IMG/VR virus record: IMGVR_UViG_3300046001_009910
Coordinates: 1 to 21,869 of that record
Source: a virus
DNA length: 21,869 nucleotides
Reading direction: 5' to 3' (one strand)
The notes under the pieces: model-generated
The model's database searches: none
The model's input: the letters and a program-made list of their open reading frames with translations, nothing else
What the model was told of the DNA's origin: nothing
Position numbers and translations under genes: made by a program
Shown here: piece after piece, positions 3,809 through 21,869 of the stretch
How the letters are laid out: each line of letters begins with the position of its first letter
Position numbering within the stretch: the first letter of the stretch is position 1

Positions 3809-5182
3809 ATGAAGAAAATCGTAATTGTAGGAGCAGGAGTAGCAGGTGTAAACGCAGCAACAAAACTTGTTGATAATGGTTATCCTGGTAACATGATCAC
3901 AATCATTGATATGGGTAAAGACCCATACAATCGCAAACCAGAAGAAGTAATGACTGGTTTCTTAGGAGCTGGTGGTTGGTCTGATGGTAAATTAACATAC
4001 CATACAGCAATTGGAGGTCAATTATCTAAATATTGTGGTGAGGATAAAGCAATGGAATTGATGGATCAAGTTATCACCAATTTTAAGCGTTTCCATCCTA
4101 AACCAGAGGAGGTACAATGTTCAAATCCTGAAGCAGAACCAGATTTCATTAAACCATATTTCGGTTTGCGTTTGTTTCCTGTATGGCACGTAGGTACAGA
4201 TTATCTATCTGAAATTGCTAAAAATTGGTATGATTATTTAGTTGAAAAAGGTGTACGATTTCATTGGGAAGCTAAAGTAACATCAATTTTATTTGATAAA
4301 AATATAGTATTTGTTAAAGAATTAAATCAATATCTTATTGAAAAACAAGGTTTCCCCGATTTTGAAGTTTCATATGATGAATTAATTTTTGCAGTAGGTA
4401 AATCAGGTATTGACTTTGCTCAAGAGCTAGCTAATCAATACGAGCTCCCAGACGAACCTAAATCAGTACAAATTGGAGTTCGATTTGAGGCACCACAAAA
4501 ACACTTCCAGAAACTAATCGATGTTTCATACGACTTTAAGTTGTATCGTAAATTTGAAGATAAAGGTGTTTCGCTTCGCTCATTCTGTACAAACAACAAT
4601 GCTGCTTATGTTGCTGTAGAAGAAACATATGGTGATCACAGCTACAATGGCCACGCTAAAAAAGACATGCGTTACCGAAACGATATGACTAATTTTGGTA
4701 TCTTGATGGAAATCAATGGTATTGAAGATCCATTTGCTTGGTCACGTAAAGTAGTAAACGAATTGCAATATGCTGGTACTGGTTTATATTATAGTCCATC
4801 TCGTAAACCATCAACAACTTCAGAAGGTGAAAGAGTTAGCTCAGTTCAAATTGATAATTTAAGTGTTGTAAAACATGGAATGGGTGAATATTGGGATTAT
4901 ATTGAAGACTTTATCGAGGATATGAAAAAAGTATTCCCAACACTACAAGACGATTGGGGTGTTTATGTTCCTGAGGTAAAATATCTTTCACCAGAACCGC
5001 TTGTAAATTATAAAGATCTTAGTTTAACTAAATTTTCAAATGTACACTTTGTAGGTGATGCTCTATCAGCCCGAGGCATTACAGTATCAGGAGCACAAGC
5101 AATTTATGTTTGTGAATCTATACTTGGAGAATGGAAAAAACATGTGTATCTTCTAGATCAAGGAACAGGAGATTTATTTTAA
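3809..5182 (+). CDS. FAD-dependent oxidoreductase (COG2509-like)
   Basis: 457 residues. The N-terminal dinucleotide-binding fold shows IVIVGAGVAGVNAA (GxGxxG at 8-13), followed by an acidic strand end (IIDMG). GGWSDGKL at 55-62, the central RSFCTNNNAAYVAV followed by TYGDHSYNGH, and a C-terminal FAD-contacting GDALSARGITVSGAQA (about 416-431) are the arrangement I associate with the uncharacterised FAD-dependent dehydrogenases of COG2509. No membrane segment is present, so a cytoplasmic flavoenzyme is expected; its substrate is unknown. It is the first gene after a terminator and a TATGTATA element, with an A/T-rich leader and no Shine-Dalgarno site. Such an enzyme is not a virion part, so it is best read as an auxiliary metabolic or nucleic-acid-modifying gene. 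Distant kinship to other flavoproteins, including tRNA-modifying ones, cannot be excluded. Confidence 0.85.
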   Translation: MKKIVIVGAGVAGVNAATKLVDNGYPGNMITIIDMGKDPYNRKPEEVMTGFLGAGGWSDGKLTYHTAIGGQLSKYCGEDKAMELMDQVITNFKRFHPKPEEVQCSNPEAEPDFIKPYFGLRLFPVWHVGTDYLSEIAKNWYDYLVEKGVRFHWEAKVTSILFDKNIVFVKELNQYLIEKQGFPDFEVSYDELIFAVGKSGIDFAQELANQYELPDEPKSVQIGVRFEAPQKHFQKLIDVSYDFKLYRKFEDKGVSLRSFCTNNNAAYVAVEETYGDHSYNGHAKKDMRYRNDMTNFGILMEINGIEDPFAWSRKVVNELQYAGTGLYYSPSRKPSTTSEGERVSSVQIDNLSVVKHGMGEYWDYIEDFIEDMKKVFPTLQDDWGVYVPEVKYLSPEPLVNYKDLSLTKFSNVHFVGDALSARGITVSGAQAIYVCESILGEWKKHVYLLDQGTGDLF

Positions 5183-5186
5183 TATT

Positions 5187-5438
5187 ATGGCAAACCACAA
5201 ATACACCCCCTCTAGAAAACTTACTAAAGCTGATGGTACTATCGCTTATGTGTTTGACAACAAACTTCACAATTGGGAAGGTCCAGCATTGATCCCAGAA
5301 GGTGATAATCGTAAACGTGAATATTATCTTAATGGTATTCAACTTACAGAAGATGATTGGAGAGATGCTCGTAAAAATAGAGAAGGATTACCTTGGTATA
5401 AAAACCCTGGTATGAAAGGACAAACAAATAGATTTTAA
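5187..5438 (+). CDS. Small MORN-like protein
   Basis: 83 residues, starting four bases after the oxidoreductase stop. The core has the order DGTIAYVFDNKLHNWEGPAL, IPEGDNRKREYY, LNGIQLTEDDW. This is the H-N-x-x-G-P-A then Y-Y-x-N-G arrangement of MORN-like repeats also seen in YwqK-type small proteins and in many phage open frames. The C-terminus (GLPWYKNPGMKG) is basic. It has no signal peptide and no catalytic residues that I can point to. A protein-binding adaptor role is possible. It sits in the oxidoreductase-cupin-kinase cassette with spacings of two to four bases, so it is probably co-transcribed. Confidence 0.8.
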   Translation: MANHKYTPSRKLTKADGTIAYVFDNKLHNWEGPALIPEGDNRKREYYLNGIQLTEDDWRDARKNREGLPWYKNPGMKGQTNRF

Positions 5439-5440
5439 TT

Positions 5441-5824
5441 ATGGGACACAAGTATCCACCACTACCTCGCAGAGGAGACGTTCATGAAAAAGCATGGGGT
5501 CATGAACTATGGATTGTGAATGATGATGAGTATTGTGGTAAACTACTTGTATTTGAAAAAGGTAAAAAATTCTCAATGCATTATCATTTGATTAAAAAAG
5601 AATCATGGTATGTAGCTGAAGGAGAATTTGAATATGGTTGGATTAATACAGAAACAGCTTCTCACGAGTCAACTGTGATTCGTCAAGGAGATGTTGTAGA
5701 TTTAGAACGTGGACAACCTCATCAATTGAGAGCACTTACACAAGGTGCTACAATTTTTGAGGTGTCTACAAAACATTACGAAGAAGATAGTTATAGAGTA
5801 CTACCAGGATCATCACAATTATGA
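5441..5824 (+). CDS. Cupin protein, sugar-phosphate-isomerase-like
   Basis: 127 residues forming a single cupin barrel. Motif 1 is FSMHYHLIKKESWYV, giving the metal ligands H47, H49 and E54. Motif 2 is GDVVDLERGQPHQL with H94. The opening HEKAWGHELWIV and the closing FEVSTKHYEEDSYRVLPG resemble the cupin half of mannose-6-phosphate isomerases and related sugar-modifying cupins. A metal-dependent sugar or sugar-phosphate isomerase or epimerase is therefore plausible, but the barrel alone does not fix the substrate. It starts two bases after the MORN-like gene. Its stop overlaps the start of the P-loop kinase in ATGA, so the two are translationally coupled and may act on the same pathway. It is much shorter than full-length mannose-6-phosphate isomerases. 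Confidence 0.85.
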   Translation: MGHKYPPLPRRGDVHEKAWGHELWIVNDDEYCGKLLVFEKGKKFSMHYHLIKKESWYVAEGEFEYGWINTETASHESTVIRQGDVVDLERGQPHQLRALTQGATIFEVSTKHYEEDSYRVLPGSSQL

Positions 5825-15582: not shown

Positions 15583-17295
15583 ATGTCACAAGTACAACAA
15601 TTACTCGAAAGCGCAGCTGGTTCTTGGAAGAATCTACAGAGCGATGCTGCTAAATTAGCTGGAAAGTGGACCAAAACCGGTCTTCTTGAAGGTTTGGGTG
15701 AGGTTGATAAAAACAACATGTCTATCTTGTTGGAAAACCAAGCCAAGCAATTAGTAACTGAATCTAACGAAATCGCTTCTAACTCTTTCTACCAATCAGG
15801 TGGACAAGGTGAGAACTGGGCTGGTATCGCTCTTCCTTTGGTAAGAAAGGTATTCGGAACTATCGTAGCTAAAGAATTCGTTTCAGTTCAACCTATGAAC
15901 ATGCCTTCAGGTCTTGTGTTCTTCTTGGATTTCCAATATGGTAATACAAAGAACCCATTCACTGCTGGTCAATCACTTTATGGCACTCGTAACACTGCCT
16001 CTCAGTTCCCCTTCTCTACTCCTGCTCCTGTAGGTGGTTTGTATGGTGGTCCTGAAGGTCGTTTTACCTACGCTACTAACAACTTCTCAGCTTCTGCTAC
16101 TGTAACTACAGCTTCAATCACTTCAGCTTCTCTTGCTGATGTAAACTTTGATTCTGACTTCTCAGCTTCAGTTGCTGCTGGTACTATTAAGGAAATCGTA
16201 GTAGCTAATGCTCAAACTACATTCCCTAACTTCGACCAAGATGCAGTTCGCGGTTTTGAATTAACTTCAGGTTCAGCTCTTACAGTTGCTGATTGCTTGA
16301 ATCAATTCACTACTTACAACTACACTGCTAACACTCTTACTTTCTACGTTTCTGCTTCAACTGCCGAAATCGCTGATTCAGGTGTTTATGTAGTTACTTA
16401 CCAAAAGTCAACTTCACAAGATGGCTTGAACGTACAATCAGGTGCTAACAACGGTGGTGCTATCTCAGGTTCAGGTCGTGGTGATTTCGAAGCTTCAGGT
16501 TCTTTCTCAGTACCTAACGCTGCTTCTAACACTCAGATCGTTATCCCTGAAATCAACGTTAGAATGCAATCACAGCCTATCACTGCTAAAACCAAGAAAT
16601 TGAAGGCAGTATGGACTCCTGAATTTGCACAAGATTTAGCTGCTTACCAGAACATCGACGCTGAAGCTGAATTGACTAACATCATGAGCGAGTACATTTC
16701 AATGGAAATTGATTTGGAAATCTTAGACATGTTGATCGAAGATGCTGCTGCTGCTACTGAGTACTGGTCAGCTATTAATAACCAAGTTTACAGCAACGGT
16801 GCTTTCTCTGCAAACACTTCTGCTTTCTACAACACTCAAGGTCAGTGGTTCCAAACTTTAGGTACTAAAATCCAAAAAGTATCTAACAAGATCCACCAGT
16901 TAACTTTGAGAGGTGGTGCTAACTTCTTAGTAACTTCTCCTACAATCGCTACTATCCTTGAGTCAATCCCAGGATTCGCTTCTACTAACAACGGTGAAGC
17001 TGATCAAATGGAATACGCTTTCGGTGTACAGAAAGTTGGTTCAGTTAACGGTCGTTACAAAGTATACAAGAACCCTTACATGACTGAAAACTTGATCCTT
17101 ATGGGTTACAGAGGTTCTCAGTTCTTGGAAACTGGTGCTGTATTCGCTCCTTACATTCCGTTGATCATGACTCCTCTAGTGTACGATCCTGATACCTTCA
17201 CTCCACGTAAAGGTCTCTTGACTCGCTATGCCAAGAAGATGTTACGTCCTGAATTCTACGGTAAGATCTACATCAATGGTTTGAACACCATTTAA
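15583..17295 (+). CDS. gp23: Major capsid protein (T4 gp23-like)
   Basis: 570 residues, HK97-fold shell protein. Order: N-terminal delta-like helix (1-60), VRKVFGTIVAKEFVSVQPMN (87-106), an inserted Ser/Thr/Ala/Val-rich beta region (about 165-315), the core strand and helix KLKAVWTPEFAQDLAAYQ (339-355), DAEAELTNIMSEYISMEID, and C-terminal ENLILMGYRGSQ followed by YAPYIPL-type and KKMLRPEFYGKIYI stretches. Protease cleavage is likely somewhere near Glu60 (LVTE-S), upstream of the shell domain as in T4; LLE-S at 9 is another site-like match. The leader is A-only near the ATG, with no Shine-Dalgarno. Codons are visibly enriched for C-ending forms (AAC, TTC, ATC) compared with neighbours, consistent with high expression. 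A strong terminator follows. Confidence 0.96.
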   Translation: MSQVQQLLESAAGSWKNLQSDAAKLAGKWTKTGLLEGLGEVDKNNMSILLENQAKQLVTESNEIASNSFYQSGGQGENWAGIALPLVRKVFGTIVAKEFVSVQPMNMPSGLVFFLDFQYGNTKNPFTAGQSLYGTRNTASQFPFSTPAPVGGLYGGPEGRFTYATNNFSASATVTTASITSASLADVNFDSDFSASVAAGTIKEIVVANAQTTFPNFDQDAVRGFELTSGSALTVADCLNQFTTYNYTANTLTFYVSASTAEIADSGVYVVTYQKSTSQDGLNVQSGANNGGAISGSGRGDFEASGSFSVPNAASNTQIVIPEINVRMQSQPITAKTKKLKAVWTPEFAQDLAAYQNIDAEAELTNIMSEYISMEIDLEILDMLIEDAAAATEYWSAINNQVYSNGAFSANTSAFYNTQGQWFQTLGTKIQKVSNKIHQLTLRGGANFLVTSPTIATILESIPGFASTNNGEADQMEYAFGVQKVGSVNGRYKVYKNPYMTENLILMGYRGSQFLETGAVFAPYIPLIMTPLVYDPDTFTPRKGLLTRYAKKMLRPEFYGKIYINGLNTI

Positions 17296-17327
17296 TCTAA
17301 AGTAGAAAAGGATTAATTTTCGAAAGG

Positions 17328-17354
17328 AAGCCCCGCGAGAGTGGGGCTTTTTTT
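17328..17354 (+). terminator. Terminator with GNRA tetraloop after the capsid gene
   Basis: AAGCCCCGC (17328-17336) pairs with GTGGGGCTT (17341-17349), including one G-U pair, around a GAGA tetraloop, followed by TTTTT. It is the most stable-looking hairpin in the window and ends the scaffold-capsid unit. Confidence 0.93.
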
Positions 17355-17356
17355 CA

Positions 17357-17364
17357 TATGTATA
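17357..17364 (+). promoter_or_regulatory. TATGTATA octamer after the capsid terminator
   Basis: It starts two bases after the terminator T-run. An ATG inside it (17358) is in frame with the next gene, but the second ATG at 17370 is the better start because the octamer recurs as a non-coding element elsewhere. Confidence 0.45.
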
Positions 17365-17369
17365 GATAT

Positions 17370-17648
17370 ATGTTTAATATTTTTGAAGAATTATCGTGGC
17401 CGCAGTTTACTCAACTGCCAACAGTTACAAGGTTACCGCTTCAAGAACAAGTAAACTCATACAATCAATATTTATTTGATTTGTCTACAGCAAGACAAAA
17501 TTTTATAGAAACACAAAACAAAGGACCTAGAGGAGTAGTTAATATTGGTCTTTTAGCCCAAGAAGAATACGATTCATCTTCAGAAGATTATTTCTTATTA
17601 TTACAAGAAGATGGTTCAGGAATTTTCGTAACAAAATATATAGACTAA
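17370..17648 (+). CDS. Small unknown protein
   Basis: 92 residues from the ATG at 17370; a start at 17358 would add MYRY but lies within a TATGTATA element. The sequence begins FNIFEELSWPQFTQLP, continues with a helix LQEQVNSYNQYLFDLSTARQNFIE, then short strands (GVVNIGLL, YFLLLQEDGSGIFVTKYI). There is no signal peptide, membrane segment or recognisable motif. The start lies only 15 bases after the capsid terminator, so it is either leaderless or nearly so, or is expressed by read-through. It is followed after one base by an appendage-like gene and probably shares its transcript. A small virion or assembly protein is a guess. Confidence 0.75.
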   Translation: MFNIFEELSWPQFTQLPTVTRLPLQEQVNSYNQYLFDLSTARQNFIETQNKGPRGVVNIGLLAQEEYDSSSEDYFLLLQEDGSGIFVTKYID

Positions 17649-17649
17649 T

Positions 17650-18288
17650 ATGCCAAATTTACCAATATCCCAATTACCATCTGCTAGTATTGTAACCGGC
17701 TCAGATGTATTTGCCGTTGTACAAGGTGGTACAACTAAACAAACCCCTTTAACTGCAATTATTTATTCTCCGGGAAATAACTACGGTTTATTCAATCAAA
17801 CTGGTTCAAGTACTATAATTACAAATACTACTACTGAAACTAGTTTATTAGATGGAGGAGTAGGAACTCTATTAGTCCCAGCAAATGGATTTACAGCAGG
17901 AGATGCTTATCATGCTGTCTTAACTGGAACTTTATCAGCTCAAAATAATAATAATTTACGAATTAGAATTAAAGCAAATAGTGTAATATTAGCAGATACT
18001 GGAAACATAACAATGGCAGGAGCTGATGCTGAACCTTGGAAAATGGAAGTTTATTTTTCAATTAATGCTATAGGTGCTGCTGGAGTTGCTAATATTTCAA
18101 CTGGAGGAACATTTATGTATACAAAAGATGCCTCTACAGATTTCCAAGGTATTAATTTTAGTACACAAAATACAAGTTCATTTGATACAACAATAAACAA
18201 TACTTTAGCTATTACAGCTCAATGGGGTACAGCTAATGCTGGTAACTCTATTTATTCTCAAATATTTACTTTGAATAAAACTTTTTAA
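17650..18288 (+). CDS. Virion appendage-like structural protein
   Basis: 212 residues. The N-terminus PISQLPSASIVTGSDVFAVVQGGTTKQT is a module found at the start of many phage fibre and appendage proteins (from memory; variants read ISxLP...GxDLxPVVQxGxTK). The rest is strand-rich with Asn, Thr, Ser and Gly (LLDGGVGTLLVPANGF, AYHAVLTGTLSA, LRIRIKANSVILADTG), suggesting a beta-sandwich C-terminal domain. It has no cysteine and no catalytic motif. It begins one base after the previous stop and ends before a strong terminator. A receptor-binding or head-fibre role is plausible; the exact position on the virion cannot be read from sequence. Confidence 0.8.
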   Translation: MPNLPISQLPSASIVTGSDVFAVVQGGTTKQTPLTAIIYSPGNNYGLFNQTGSSTIITNTTTETSLLDGGVGTLLVPANGFTAGDAYHAVLTGTLSAQNNNNLRIRIKANSVILADTGNITMAGADAEPWKMEVYFSINAIGAAGVANISTGGTFMYTKDASTDFQGINFSTQNTSSFDTTINNTLAITAQWGTANAGNSIYSQIFTLNKTF

Positions 18289-18309
18289 ATTTTAAAAAAT
18301 TTACTAAAG

Positions 18310-18337
18310 AGGCCTAGAGTTTTCTAGGCCTTTTTTT
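18310..18337 (+). terminator. Intrinsic terminator after the appendage gene
   Basis: AGGCCTAGA (18310-18318) pairs perfectly with TCTAGGCCT (18323-18331) around GTTT, followed by a run of T to 18337. It separates the appendage gene from the deiminase-like unit. Confidence 0.93.
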
Positions 18338-18357
18338 ACTTATAGGTACCTACCTAA

Positions 18358-18364
18358 TATGTAT
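18358..18364 (+). promoter_or_regulatory. TATGTAT element upstream of the deiminase-like gene
   Basis: It lies 20 bases after the terminator T-run and 23 bases before the ATG, the same element-to-start distance as at the copy upstream of the FAD-oxidoreductase gene within one base. It is a candidate promoter of the three-gene unit. Confidence 0.5.
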
Positions 18365-18387
18365 TATTAAACACAAAAAGTTACAAT

Positions 18388-19302
18388 ATGAAAGAAACTC
18401 CAAGTCAGTTACACTTACAAAGTTATGTAATGAATTTCCCCTTTACCTTATCAACCTCAGACCCAAACAATATTTGGATGCAGGAATTGTCAGATGAGGA
18501 ACTATTTGTTAATAAACCTAAGGCATATAAACAATTCATGGATCTTTATAGCTTCATGGCAGGTAATTCTTTAACGTATTTACTGCCATCAGAAGGTAAT
18601 TTCCAGGATCAGGTGTACGTTGCCAATTTAGGTATTTATTTACCACATATAACGGGAGAAAACCACATCGTCTTATCGAACTTTACCTCAGATCCCCGTA
18701 AAGGAGAAGAGTTGGTTGGAGAAAAATTCTTTAATCAAATGGGTTATCAAACAGCTATTTCCCCTTACAAATGGGAAGGTGAAGCTGACTTGAAATATCT
18801 TTACGATAATGTGTATATTGGAGGTTATGGTATCCGTTCAAACATAAAAACATATGAGTGGATGGAGAAAAATTATGATATGAATATTATCAAAGTAGCT
18901 ATGGTTGATGAATATTTGTATCACTTAGATTGTTCTATTTTTGCATTAAACCCAGATCAAACTCTAGTATGTACTGAATTATTTGATCCTGCCGAATTAG
19001 CTGAAATCGAAAAACACACTGAAATTATTGACGTGGATATTGAAGATGCTTTAGGTGGAATGACAAATTCTGTTCGTATGGGTAACATGATTTTATGTGC
19101 TTCTAACATTTCTGAGATGAAAAAAACTCACGAGTACTATGAAGGTGAAAAACATAAACTTGCTTCATTAGAGAAAATTTGTTCAGACGCTGGTATGGAA
19201 CCTGTAATATTCAACCTTTCAGAATATATGAAATCAGGAGCTATGTTAAGCTGTATGGTAATGCATTTAAACAGAATTGATCACAACAGAACCTTACTAT
19301 AA
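18388..19302 (+). CDS. Guanidino-modifying enzyme superfamily protein (DDAH/arginine deiminase/amidinotransferase-like)
   Basis: 304 residues. The superfamily uses an active-site Cys to attack the guanidino carbon of arginine-like substrates. Its motifs appear in order: ANLGIYLPH (79-87), VLSNFTSDPRKGEE (95-108), the substrate-carboxylate motif KWEGEADLKYL (128-138; E130, E132), GGYGIRSN (145-152), the catalytic His in YHLDCSIF (H179, D181), and the nucleophile near the C-terminus in SGAMLSCMVMHLNR (C289). All catalytic-type residues are therefore present and the length suits DDAH or a compact deiminase. The substrate (free arginine, methylarginine, agmatine, protein arginine) cannot be told from this. 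It opens a unit after a terminator and overlaps the decarboxylase-like gene by one base (TAATG). It is unexpected in a head-gene region. Confidence 0.82.
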   Translation: MKETPSQLHLQSYVMNFPFTLSTSDPNNIWMQELSDEELFVNKPKAYKQFMDLYSFMAGNSLTYLLPSEGNFQDQVYVANLGIYLPHITGENHIVLSNFTSDPRKGEELVGEKFFNQMGYQTAISPYKWEGEADLKYLYDNVYIGGYGIRSNIKTYEWMEKNYDMNIIKVAMVDEYLYHLDCSIFALNPDQTLVCTELFDPAELAEIEKHTEIIDVDIEDALGGMTNSVRMGNMILCASNISEMKKTHEYYEGEKHKLASLEKICSDAGMEPVIFNLSEYMKSGAMLSCMVMHLNRIDHNRTLL

Positions 19303-20048
19303 TGGCACAAACACTTCAAGATTGGCTAAACGGTGAGGTAAAACAGCTACAAAAACTTCCCGTAGGCGAGTTATCTAATACTTTCTTTTTTAGAGACCCA
19401 ATTCGCCCAATGTTTATTGACTATGAGCATTTTTACTCACCTGCTGATGGTACAATTTTATACCAAAAATACGTTCAAGATCCTACTTCACCTATAATTG
19501 AAATTAAAGGTATAGATTATACATTACAAGATGTATTAGGTGATGATGAATACAATAAACCATCGTTAGTTATCGGTATATTTATGTCATTTTACGACGT
19601 TCATATCAACCGCATACCCTATGGTGGAATATTAAAATATAAGCCACTAGACGTTATAGAATCAACCAACAAACCAATGTTAGCGGTTGAAAAAGATATT
19701 CTAAACAAAATTGTTAATCCTAACAATATGGAATATCTTAAACATAACGAAAGAATGTGGAATCAAATTTACTCACCTTCTTTAGATTACACTTATTACC
19801 TTGTCCAAATTGCAGATGAGGATGTAAACGTAATCGCTCACTTCACAAACTCACAAAACGATACATTTGCTCAAAATGAGAGATTTTCTTTAATAAGATG
19901 GGGGTCGCAGGTCGATCTAGTACTCCCATTGGACGAACGATTCGATTTTGACCTTGTTTTAGATGACCACATGCACGTAAATGCTGGGTTAGACAAGCTA
20001 GTTAAAATTAATTTTAAAAATGATGAATCAACCAACTCACGAAGATGA
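19302..20048 (+). CDS. psd: Phosphatidylserine decarboxylase-family protein (pyruvoyl-type)
   Basis: 248 residues. Family enzymes cleave themselves at Gly-Ser, turning the Ser into a pyruvoyl group that decarboxylates phosphatidylserine or, in some members, amino acids. Motifs in order: SPADGTIL (46-53; D49), IKGIDYTLQDVLG (68-80), the signature IGIFMSFYDVHINRIPYGG (91-109; H101), HNERMW (148-153), and RFSLIRWGSQVDLVLP (194-209) with the putative processing site between G201 and S202. The spacing D49-H101-S202 is close to that of the Asp-His-Ser triad in the E. coli enzyme, and cleavage would give a 47-residue alpha chain, a normal size. The usual LGST is WGSQ here. No N-terminal membrane segment is seen. 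It overlaps the deiminase-like gene by one base and phoH by 29. Confidence 0.85.
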   Translation: MAQTLQDWLNGEVKQLQKLPVGELSNTFFFRDPIRPMFIDYEHFYSPADGTILYQKYVQDPTSPIIEIKGIDYTLQDVLGDDEYNKPSLVIGIFMSFYDVHINRIPYGGILKYKPLDVIESTNKPMLAVEKDILNKIVNPNNMEYLKHNERMWNQIYSPSLDYTYYLVQIADEDVNVIAHFTNSQNDTFAQNERFSLIRWGSQVDLVLPLDERFDFDLVLDDHMHVNAGLDKLVKINFKNDESTNSRR

Positions 20049-20757
20049 TATCTTCAAAGAAAAAAGAAAACCAAAAAATCCAATCAAATTTAAGTTACAA
20101 CTAAACGAGGAACAAAAAGCAGCTAAAGCTAAAATACTAGAAAGTACAATTACTTTATTAGCAGGAGCTGCTGGTTCAGGTAAAACATTACTTGCTTGTC
20201 AAATTGGTTTAGAAAAACTGTTTATGAGAGATGTTGAAAAGGTAATTATTACCCGACCAACAGTATCTAAAGAGGAAATTGGATTCCTACCAGGTGATTT
20301 AAGAGAAAAAATGGATCCTTGGGTTCAACCAATCTATCAAAATATGTTCTTGCTTTATGATAAAACTAAGATTGAAGAACTTATTAAAGAAGATAAAATA
20401 GAAATTGTACCTGTATCGTTTATGCGAGGCAGAACATTTGTAAACTCTGTAGTAATTGTAGACGAGGCCCAAAACGTAACACACGAGCAAATGGAAATGA
20501 TCGTTACTCGTATTGGTAAAGGATCTAAAATGATCATTTGTGGTGATGATGCACAGGTAGATTTAAAACAAAAACGCGATTCCGGATTTAAGTTTTTATA
20601 TGCGGCTGCTAAAAAGATTAAAAATCTTTGTGCTATATCTTTGAAACAAAACCATAGAGACCCAATCGTAGAAGATTTAATCAACTTGTACAACGATGCT
20701 TACGAATCTGGTTTAAATTTAGGTACCTCAGGAAGTAACGGAAATTCCAGAAAATAA
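20020..20757 (+). CDS. phoH: PhoH-like ATPase
   Basis: 245 residues. Walker A GAAGSGKT (49-56), IITRPTVSKEEIGFLPGD (76-93), Walker B VIVDEAQN (145-152), the GDDAQVD sensor (175-181) and KQNHRDPIVEDLI near the C-terminus give the full PhoH order. PhoH proteins are RNA-associated P-loop ATPases common in phages. Despite the name, a link to phosphate starvation is not supported here by any regulatory site. Two adjacent ATGs (20020, 20023) are possible starts. The gene overlaps the decarboxylase-like gene by 29 bases, so it is in the same unit. The N-terminus is a hydrophilic extension and the C-terminal tail is Gly/Ser/Asn-rich. Confidence 0.95.
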   Translation: MMNQPTHEDDIFKEKRKPKNPIKFKLQLNEEQKAAKAKILESTITLLAGAAGSGKTLLACQIGLEKLFMRDVEKVIITRPTVSKEEIGFLPGDLREKMDPWVQPIYQNMFLLYDKTKIEELIKEDKIEIVPVSFMRGRTFVNSVVIVDEAQNVTHEQMEMIVTRIGKGSKMIICGDDAQVDLKQKRDSGFKFLYAAAKKIKNLCAISLKQNHRDPIVEDLINLYNDAYESGLNLGTSGSNGNSRK

Positions 20758-20780
20758 TAAATAGTTCCATAATTTTTCAA

Positions 20781-20788
20781 TATTTATA
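20781..20788 (+). promoter_or_regulatory. TATTTATA octamer upstream of fibre-region genes
   Basis: It lies in the 42-base gap after phoH, 11 bases before the next ATG, within a purely A/T stretch except for one C. It belongs to the same family as the other octamers. Confidence 0.5.
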
Positions 20789-20799
20789 TATAAAAAAAC

Positions 20800-21216
20800 A
20801 TGGCTGCTGGAAAATATTCTTTTATTATTGAACAAGGTGCAACTTTAAATTTAGAATTACAATACAAAGATTCAACAGGTGATCCTATAAGCTTAGCAGG
20901 TTACGAGGGTGCTATGCAGATTCGTTCCACATATAGTGGTAGTGGTACAACTTATTTAACTTTAACTTCTAGCTTAGGAGACACTTATAATTTTAATAGT
21001 GGTAGTGCATTTTTAAGTTTCTCTGGTAGTAACGGTACTACACCCGTAGCATCTGGTAGTATAGGAATTTATGCAGGTTGGGCTGAAACACAAGATTTAG
21101 TCTTTACAGGTAATGCTTACTATGATATTGAACTTACTTCTGGAAGTGAAAAAATTAGATTGCTCGAAGGTCAAGTACAATTAAGCAAACAAGTTACTGA
21201 AGTTAATCCTGCCTAA
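20800..21216 (+). CDS. Tail/baseplate-region structural protein
   Basis: 138 residues. It opens AAGKYSFIIEQGATLNLELQYKD, followed by DPISLAGYEGAMQIRS, a variable Ser/Gly-rich beta middle, then AYYDIELTSGSEKIRLLEGQVQLSKQVT. This is a common small phage virion module: an N-terminal polarised-polymer-like strand pattern and a terminal (R)LLEGxV...VT. It often sits just upstream of fibre genes in T4-like phages as far as I recall. It has no cysteine and no enzymatic motif. It starts 11 bases after a TATTTATA element in an A-rich leader and is followed after 11 bases by the collagen-like fibre gene, so the two probably act together at the virion surface. Confidence 0.85.
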   Translation: MAAGKYSFIIEQGATLNLELQYKDSTGDPISLAGYEGAMQIRSTYSGSGTTYLTLTSSLGDTYNFNSGSAFLSFSGSNGTTPVASGSIGIYAGWAETQDLVFTGNAYYDIELTSGSEKIRLLEGQVQLSKQVTEVNPA

Positions 21217-21227
21217 ACGAGTTTGTA

Positions 21228-21869
21228 ATGGAGTCAAACTCAATTAATGTAATACAAAGCCAAAATACTATAGTCGTTGTAGAGCCGACAGGTAATACTA
21301 TCACTATTATTCAAAATCCAGACTCCAGTTCAGTAACAACACAAAGTACAACGTTTAGTCCTACAACAGTAGTACAAACGACTTTAACATTAAATTTAGA
21401 TAATCTACCTAACACTGTTACGGTAGTAAATACACAACTTCCAGACAATATTGTAGAAGTTGCACAACCAGTATCTGCAGTAATTGAAGTTGGACAAGTA
21501 GGACCTAGAGGTTCATCTGGTACTTCTGGTTCAAGTGGATCAAGCGGATCAAGCGGTTTATCAGGCACAAGCGGAAGTTCAGGTTCATCCGGAACATCAG
21601 GTTCTTCAGGTACCTCTGGTACCTCCGGTGTTACAGGAACATCTGGTGTTGCAGGTACTTCAGGTTCAGCAGGAACTTCAGGTTCTTCAGGTGTATCTGG
21701 TTTACCAGGTGCCCCTGGTACATCTGGTACTTCTGGTACTTCTGGTTCAAGTGGAACTTCAGGCAGCTCAGGTTCAAGTGGTACTTCGGGCACTTCAGGT
21801 CAAGCAGGTACTTCAGGTTCATCTGGCTCAAGTGGTGTAGATGGATCTTCTGGTACTTCAGGTTCAAAC
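21228..21869 (+). CDS. Collagen-like fibre protein, N-terminal part (runs off the window)
   Basis: 214 codons are visible with no stop, so the gene continues beyond the window. Residues 1-91 are strand-rich and Thr/Val/Asn-rich (TIVVVEPTGNTITIIQNP, TVTVVNTQLPDNIVEV) and probably attach the fibre to the virion. From GPR at residue 92 the sequence is 41 uninterrupted Gly-X-Y triplets to the window end, mostly GSS and GTS, with only GPR, GLP and GAP containing proline. Such repeats form trimeric collagen-like shafts in phage tail fibres; the receptor-binding tip would lie downstream. The start is the ATG at 21228, 11 bases after the preceding stop. The repeat produces several long spurious frames on both strands. 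Repeats of this kind are prone to length change between relatives. Confidence 0.9.
   Translation, partial: MESNSINVIQSQNTIVVVEPTGNTITIIQNPDSSSVTTQSTTFSPTTVVQTTLTLNLDNLPNTVTVVNTQLPDNIVEVAQPVSAVIEVGQVGPRGSSGTSGSSGSSGSSGLSGTSGSSGSSGTSGSSGTSGTSGVTGTSGVAGTSGSAGTSGSSGVSGLPGAPGTSGTSGTSGSSGTSGSSGSSGTSGTSGQAGTSGSSGSSGVDGSSGTSGSN
21501..21869 (+). repeat. Collagen-like Gly-X-Y coding repeat
   Basis: A nine-base-scale degenerate repeat built from GGT-TCA/ACT-TCA/TCT-type codons encodes 41 consecutive Gly-X-Y units, broken off by the window end. Codons vary enough that DNA identity between units is partial, while the protein pattern is exact. Confidence 0.9.

Follow-up and report, generated by a model that had tools for sequence, protein, structure and literature searches.

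An arginine-dihydrolase-like protein and a soluble PSD-fold decarboxylase encoded as a conserved gene pair in T4-like phages: a candidate route from arginine to an amine

The described systems closest to the enzyme pair analysed here are the arginine dihydrolases ArgZ (Sll1336) and AgrE (Alr4995) and the phosphatidylserine decarboxylase (PSD) family. The ArgZ/AgrE dihydrolase reaction takes arginine and frees ammonia (PMC8262935). The first protein of our pair, a guanidino-group-modifying enzyme (GME), resembles the dihydrolase domain of ArgZ/AgrE in its fold (TM 0.80), in the catalytic Cys, His and Glu, in an Asn and in the carboxylate-binding arginines. It differs in that the identity is only about 22%, that it is a single-domain protein without the ornithine cyclodeaminase half, and that it is partnered with a decarboxylase. 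This partner, termed PSD-like in the following, shares with the PSD family (E. coli PSD; short PRK05305 type) the fold, the D49/H101 motifs and the Gly-Ser self-cleavage site. PsiD, the tryptophan decarboxylase of Psilocybe, is a PSD-family enzyme whose substrate is a free amino acid (PMC12603985). In being self-cleaving and in using a free amino acid it is like the role proposed here for PSD-like, but it is fungal and larger, takes an aromatic substrate and shares about 14-16% identity. Phages with pyruvoyl decarboxylases for ornithine or arginine are proven, and these enzymes feed polyamine synthesis (PMC9992855). They derive from AdoMetDC, however, and have a different fold, and the text of that report mentions neither phosphatidylserine nor dihydrolase. 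Orthologues of both proteins occur in Campylobacter Fletchervirus NCTC12673 as gp45 and gp86 (about 40% and 38% identity), where they are annotated singly as 'amidinotransferase' and 'phosphatidylserine decarboxylase'. The two genes are 43 kb apart in the Campylobacter Fletchervirus group, and nearly each genome with one has the other. No paper linking both genes was found in the literature searched; PMC11360552 has both terms and is unrelated. Already known, then, are separate gene annotations in Campylobacter phages, whereas the proposed enzyme pair for phage amine synthesis is apparently new.

The window, i.e., the whole stretch of 21,869 nucleotides that was analysed, is a T4-like head region with terminase, portal and a gp23-type capsid protein encoded upstream of the enzyme pair (Table 1). 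Past the capsid gene, from left to right, two small ORFs, a hairpin, the TATGTATT element, GME, PSD-like and phoH are found. Two further genes of the window are recorded in their own right. A dehydrogenase-like protein (3809-5182; PHROG_12409, Pyr_redox_2) is encoded just upstream of terminase and portal, and a TATGTATA element of its own precedes the gene. A gene at 21228-21869, which runs off the end, carries a long GTSGSSG-type collagen-like repeat and probably encodes a tail or fibre protein.

Table 1. Features of the enzyme cassette and its flanks in the window
Feature	Coordinates	Strand	Evidence or remark
Gene for the gp23-type major capsid protein, flanking the cassette on the left	15583..17295	+	PHROG_138 major head protein, E=1.6e-70
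Intrinsic terminator-like hairpin with T-tract, between upstream genes and the unit	18306..18335	+	sole terminator-like site in 17000-21000
Late-type promoter element TATGTATT	18358..18365	+	family consensus TATKTATA
GME (guanidino-group-modifying enzyme), arginine-dihydrolase-like, 304 aa, PHROG_12759	18388..19302	+	sequence, profile and fold searches
PSD-like: soluble pyruvoyl-type decarboxylase, PSD fold, 'GSQ' subfamily, 248 aa, PHROG_12670	19302..20048	+	PF02666
phoH, core gene downstream	20020..20757	+	PF02562, E=3.9e-63

A first-pass annotation of this DNA had placed both enzyme genes at these coordinates, overlapping by one base and followed by phoH, in one unit behind its own terminator and a TATGTAT element. 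All of this was recovered, with TATGTAT beginning 30 bp ahead of the GME start codon, and every residue it had named is there (E130, E132, H179 and C289 in GME; D49, H101 and G201-S202 in PSD-like). The shared base of the GME and PSD-like ORFs lies in ATAATG, and this overlap is retained in 83 of 84 distinct relatives, while phoH and the PSD-like gene overlap by 29 bp. Within 80 nt upstream of GME, 85 of 87 distinct relatives carry TATNTATW, where 13.2 were expected from shuffles; the motif is mostly located 30-44 nt ahead of the GME ATG. It was found upstream of PSD in none of the 87 and never upstream of phoH, which suggests that the three genes probably form one transcript, phoH apparently being transcribed along with the cassette. 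Purifying selection on both enzyme genes is strong, the median dN/dS in relatives being 0.11 (GME) and 0.085 (PSD-like); the count of intact phoH ORFs in this analysis reflected an artefact in placing the start and was set aside. The features of this locus are not due to chance.

No Pfam match was obtained for GME. NCBIfam pointed to arginine dihydrolase and dimethylargininase, both far under their cut-offs (73.9 bits for the arginine dihydrolase equivalog NF052232, which demands 450 bits). As a single sequence, GME hit arginine dihydrolase structures with E=5e-13 (phmmer), and ArgZ/AgrE were its sole matches among solved structures, apart from chance hits, with the single sequence as well as with the family profile. 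In a fold search with the AlphaFold (AF2) model (mean pLDDT 92), ArgZ/AgrE made up the top 13 with a TM of up to 0.81, followed by DDAH, amidinotransferases, AstB and arginine deiminase.

At the residue level, GME retains D74, N80, R104, E130, R150, H179, D181 and C289. C289, H179 and E130 align with the catalytic residues of ArgZ and are invariant in phages; the key residues are common to aquatic, Campylobacter and Bacteroides phages whose proteins are only about 40% identical. N80 aligns with ArgZ N71, a dihydrolase-type Asn that replaces the second Asp of the guanidinium site; in ADI and DDAH this position is Asp (PMC11659421). The structure of ArgZ N71S (PDB 6juz) contains a covalent reaction intermediate. 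R104 and R150 correspond to the substrate-carboxylate positions of ADI and DDAH and D74 to the amine position, while the position of D181 is Asp in ADIs and Lys in DDAHs; these residue roles were taken from PDB titles and PMC11659421. A dimethylargininase (DDAH) was rejected for GME, which has N80 and D181 rather than the guanidinium-site Asp and the Lys two past the catalytic His. A phage gene bearing such a label, the annotated dimethylarginine dimethylaminohydrolase of Xanthomonas phage phiXF1 (L321:2977-3795), is a close ArgZ relative (E=3e-69); phiXF1 is not among the decarboxylase-bearing records. By its residues, GME resembles a dihydrolase, which turns Arg into Orn, more than a deiminase. 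The guanidino-modifying family assigned in the first pass holds at superfamily level, but its deiminase-like character gives way to a dihydrolase-like one. Since the carboxylate and amine residues are kept, the predicted substrate is free arginine, ahead of decarboxylation. GME would act on a free alpha-amino acid and convert Arg to Orn, a predicted first reaction with good residue-level support.

Pfam, silent on GME, placed the second protein in PF02666 (E=1.7e-25; 90 bits, gathering cut-off 22 bits), and its earlier assignment to the PSD family is right at this superfamily level. The best NCBIfam model gave 71 bits and stayed below the 183-bit cut-off of the PSD equivalog. On their best model the phage protein and its relatives score 70-76 bits, whereas the control, a Paracoccus PSD adjoining pssA (L302), scores 379 and passes. 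No hydrophobic N-terminal or membrane segment was found in PSD-like (KD maximum of 0.29 over residues 1-60, compared with 2.07 in the control), and its relatives likewise lack the strong N-terminal hydrophobic segment of the control. The PS synthase gene pssA, present at the control locus, was absent among the scanned neighbours of PSD-like. D49, H101 and G201-S202-Q203 do not vary among the 34 family members examined; compared to the control PSD, PSD-like has GSQ instead of GSR as well as extra KG and PMLxxE motifs. PSD-like is soluble and belongs to a subfamily of its own, marked by the GSQ processing site. An AdoMetDC-type (PF02675) phage decarboxylase was considered for it and dismissed, because the Pfam and NCBIfam matches are to the PSD family. 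In its structural model, which is of moderate confidence (pLDDT 77), the loop 119-142 (pLDDT <50) may line the pocket; fold matches were E. coli PSD first and PsiD second.

One of two functions proposed in the first pass was a remodelling of membrane lipid, i.e., true phosphatidylserine decarboxylation together with head-group modification. It could draw on the PF02666 membership, on E. coli PSD as the best fold match, and on some exporters near the bacterial operons described below, which could be lipid flippases. We consider it very unlikely, as PSD-like has neither a membrane segment nor a pssA neighbour and its 71 bits lie under every PSD cut-off (at least 183 bits).

GME and PSD-like are direct neighbours in 98 of the 100 distinct viral sequences; Bacteroides phage DAC19 has them adjacent. 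The two non-adjacent viral cases are L300, with one gene between, and L301, with the genes about 2 kb apart and inverted. The order on the L300 contig is GME, a gene of the agmatine deiminase family (4993-5814, catalytic Cys present) and PSD, with an endonuclease VII neighbour. Such a gene inside the pair again points to arginine/polyamine chemistry. Of 52 relatives sharing the capsid gene, a set of contigs chosen by the capsid protein only, 22 have both genes and 30 have neither. Single genes at random positions, which would speak against the coupled pair claimed in the first pass, did not occur among these capsid-matched relatives, where the pattern is all or none; together with the adjacency, this marks the pair as a genuine functional unit. 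In 27 pair-less contigs phoH comes directly after the capsid gene, and since this gap measures just 82-222 bp, the cassette comes or goes as a unit. The PSD-like decarboxylase was not found elsewhere in the available sequence of nine pair-less records. A contig of a Flavobacteriales MAG (L251) carries the capsid gene, GME and the decarboxylase at 59-77% identity, which gives a weak hint that the hosts are Bacteroidota.

Some relatives carry 7-deazaguanine genes, and the pair might then help to make a modified DNA base. The 95-97% relative G001 indeed encodes GTP cyclohydrolase I, a QueD-type protein and QueC. However, QueC does not track the pair: it occurs in the pair-less G965, G966 and G970 and is missing from the complete pair-bearing genomes of NCTC12673 and DAC19, and the pair is also found on bacterial chromosomes. 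A role in base modification is largely refuted by this and retains next to no probability. For the record, the 7-deazaguanine precursor genes of G001 (L166, L167; 105-139 kb) are accompanied by a sugar-nucleotide and glycosyltransferase gene set.

The pair is not confined to phages. A scan of bacterial genomes yielded ten loci plus the one phage contig in the Flavobacteriales MAG. GME is next to or near PSD-like in nine of the ten, generally in the order PSD then GME; one of these nine, L260, is itself a phage contig, and L300 from IMG/VR is identical to it in the decarboxylase. An independent search with a GME profile, run against 297 genomes from a single actinobacterial family and 299 from another class, gave 22 loci, 20 of which have a PSD-like gene directly upstream of GME. 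The reciprocal search with a decarboxylase profile returned exactly the same 14 of the 297 actinobacterial-family genomes. The reversed-order pair is an operon in actinobacteria that has not been described before. With the bacterial decarboxylase as query, no viral relatives were found.

Neighbours of the bacterial operons are often exporters (ABC half-transporters, MATE, EamA or MFS). This suggests that the product is exported, to which plain putrescine is not an obvious fit. A secreted amine would be compatible with a decarboxylase that uses another arginine-family amino acid, the first step being the same or none, and that yields a different cationic amine: arginine to agmatine, citrulline to N-carbamoylputrescine, or a modified amino acid could be decarboxylated. 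The agmatine-deiminase-family gene within the L300 cassette is in line with such a substrate, as are those phage pyruvoyl decarboxylases that take both Arg and Orn (PMC9992855). R104, R150 and D74 are kept in every GME with an intact site, though, and this places GME before decarboxylation. Overall, we regard another substrate as rather unlikely, while still giving it appreciable weight.

Catalytic residues of GME have been lost in at least three clades of bacteria, each time beside an intact PSD gene (L253, L255, L258, L275, L277, L278, L279). The Cys is replaced by Ser, Ala or Arg, the His by Arg and the Glu by Gly; natural C289S/A versions occur in S. hindustanus and Allokutzneria. The PSD active site shows no variation, also not beside a decayed GME. 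Long phage branches are unreliably placed in the decarboxylase tree, and only the GME-clade pattern was used. Since GME decays while its partner stays intact, a complex is suggested in which GME is perhaps needed as a subunit without activity, and the persistence of the operon with an intact PSD shows that GME catalysis is not always required. This could be taken further: GME might serve the decarboxylase chiefly as a structural or activating partner, in the manner of a prozyme, with its own catalysis secondary, and the overlap of the genes in both gene orders would agree with that. On the other hand, the phage active site is complete and invariant across phages only about 40% identical, and the non-adjacent genes of the Campylobacter phages make a strict co-translational complex unnecessary. 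We judge a mainly structural GME to be unlikely.

The best reading of the pair, to which we give about an even chance, is a conversion of arginine to ornithine and on to putrescine. The gene architecture, the conserved fold and residues, the all-or-none inheritance and the bacterial operon are observed directly. We infer both reactions and their order, the ornithine substrate, the complex and the purpose for the phage as follows. GME would hydrolyse free L-arginine to L-ornithine, CO2 and two NH3. Self-cleavage at Gly201-Ser202 would provide the PSD-fold protein with its pyruvoyl cofactor, and it would then most likely convert ornithine to putrescine, as pathway logic and the agmatine-deiminase neighbour suggest. 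The one-base translational overlap would ensure matched synthesis of both proteins, which probably also associate. The cassette would be self-contained and late-expressed, its two steps independent of the host, and the amine would most plausibly serve late in infection as a counter-ion of packaged DNA, or in translation. The second function proposed in the first pass, a polyamine-like compound made from an arginine-derived substrate by decarboxylation and deimination, is broadly favoured, with two changes: a dihydrolase replaces the deiminase, and the GME step would precede decarboxylation. A dihydrolase reaction would also use up arginine and free ammonia (PMC8262935), and one could suppose that arginine depletion, or a rise in pH or ammonia, impairs host defence or translation, with the amine as a by-product. 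This would leave a dedicated and strictly conserved decarboxylase without reason, and late expression would be poor timing; we give the idea hardly any credence.

As for the arginine-to-putrescine reading, 18 phage records yielded no AdoMetDC (PF02675), and hence there is no sign of a further step to spermidine. The idea of a broader polyamine pathway in the phage was also rejected, Pfam revealing no further polyamine gene among 63 of the larger ORFs of G001 outside the structural block. Taking phages and bacteria together, we tentatively put forward, as a possibility short of even chances, an undescribed two-protein arginine-to-amine system that forms a complex and in which GME can become a non-catalytic activator.

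If true, such a system would extend the decarboxylation of ornithine or arginine to a further protein fold and give phages a new polyamine route that does not depend on the host. The pair would be a new enzymatic solution, in which a dihydrolase makes ornithine and a PSD-fold enzyme decarboxylates it; in the literature searched, this fold is unreported for that task. Many Campylobacter phage genes now called amidinotransferase or phosphatidylserine decarboxylase would be re-labelled, and the B. thetaiotaomicron phage DAC19 is available as a cultured test system. Thanks to the empty capsid-phoH site, near relatives can be compared directly for gain and loss of the cassette. In bacteria, an unannotated operon is exposed, and its repeated combination of a pseudoenzyme with an intact partner would offer a clean case for the study of obligate partnership.
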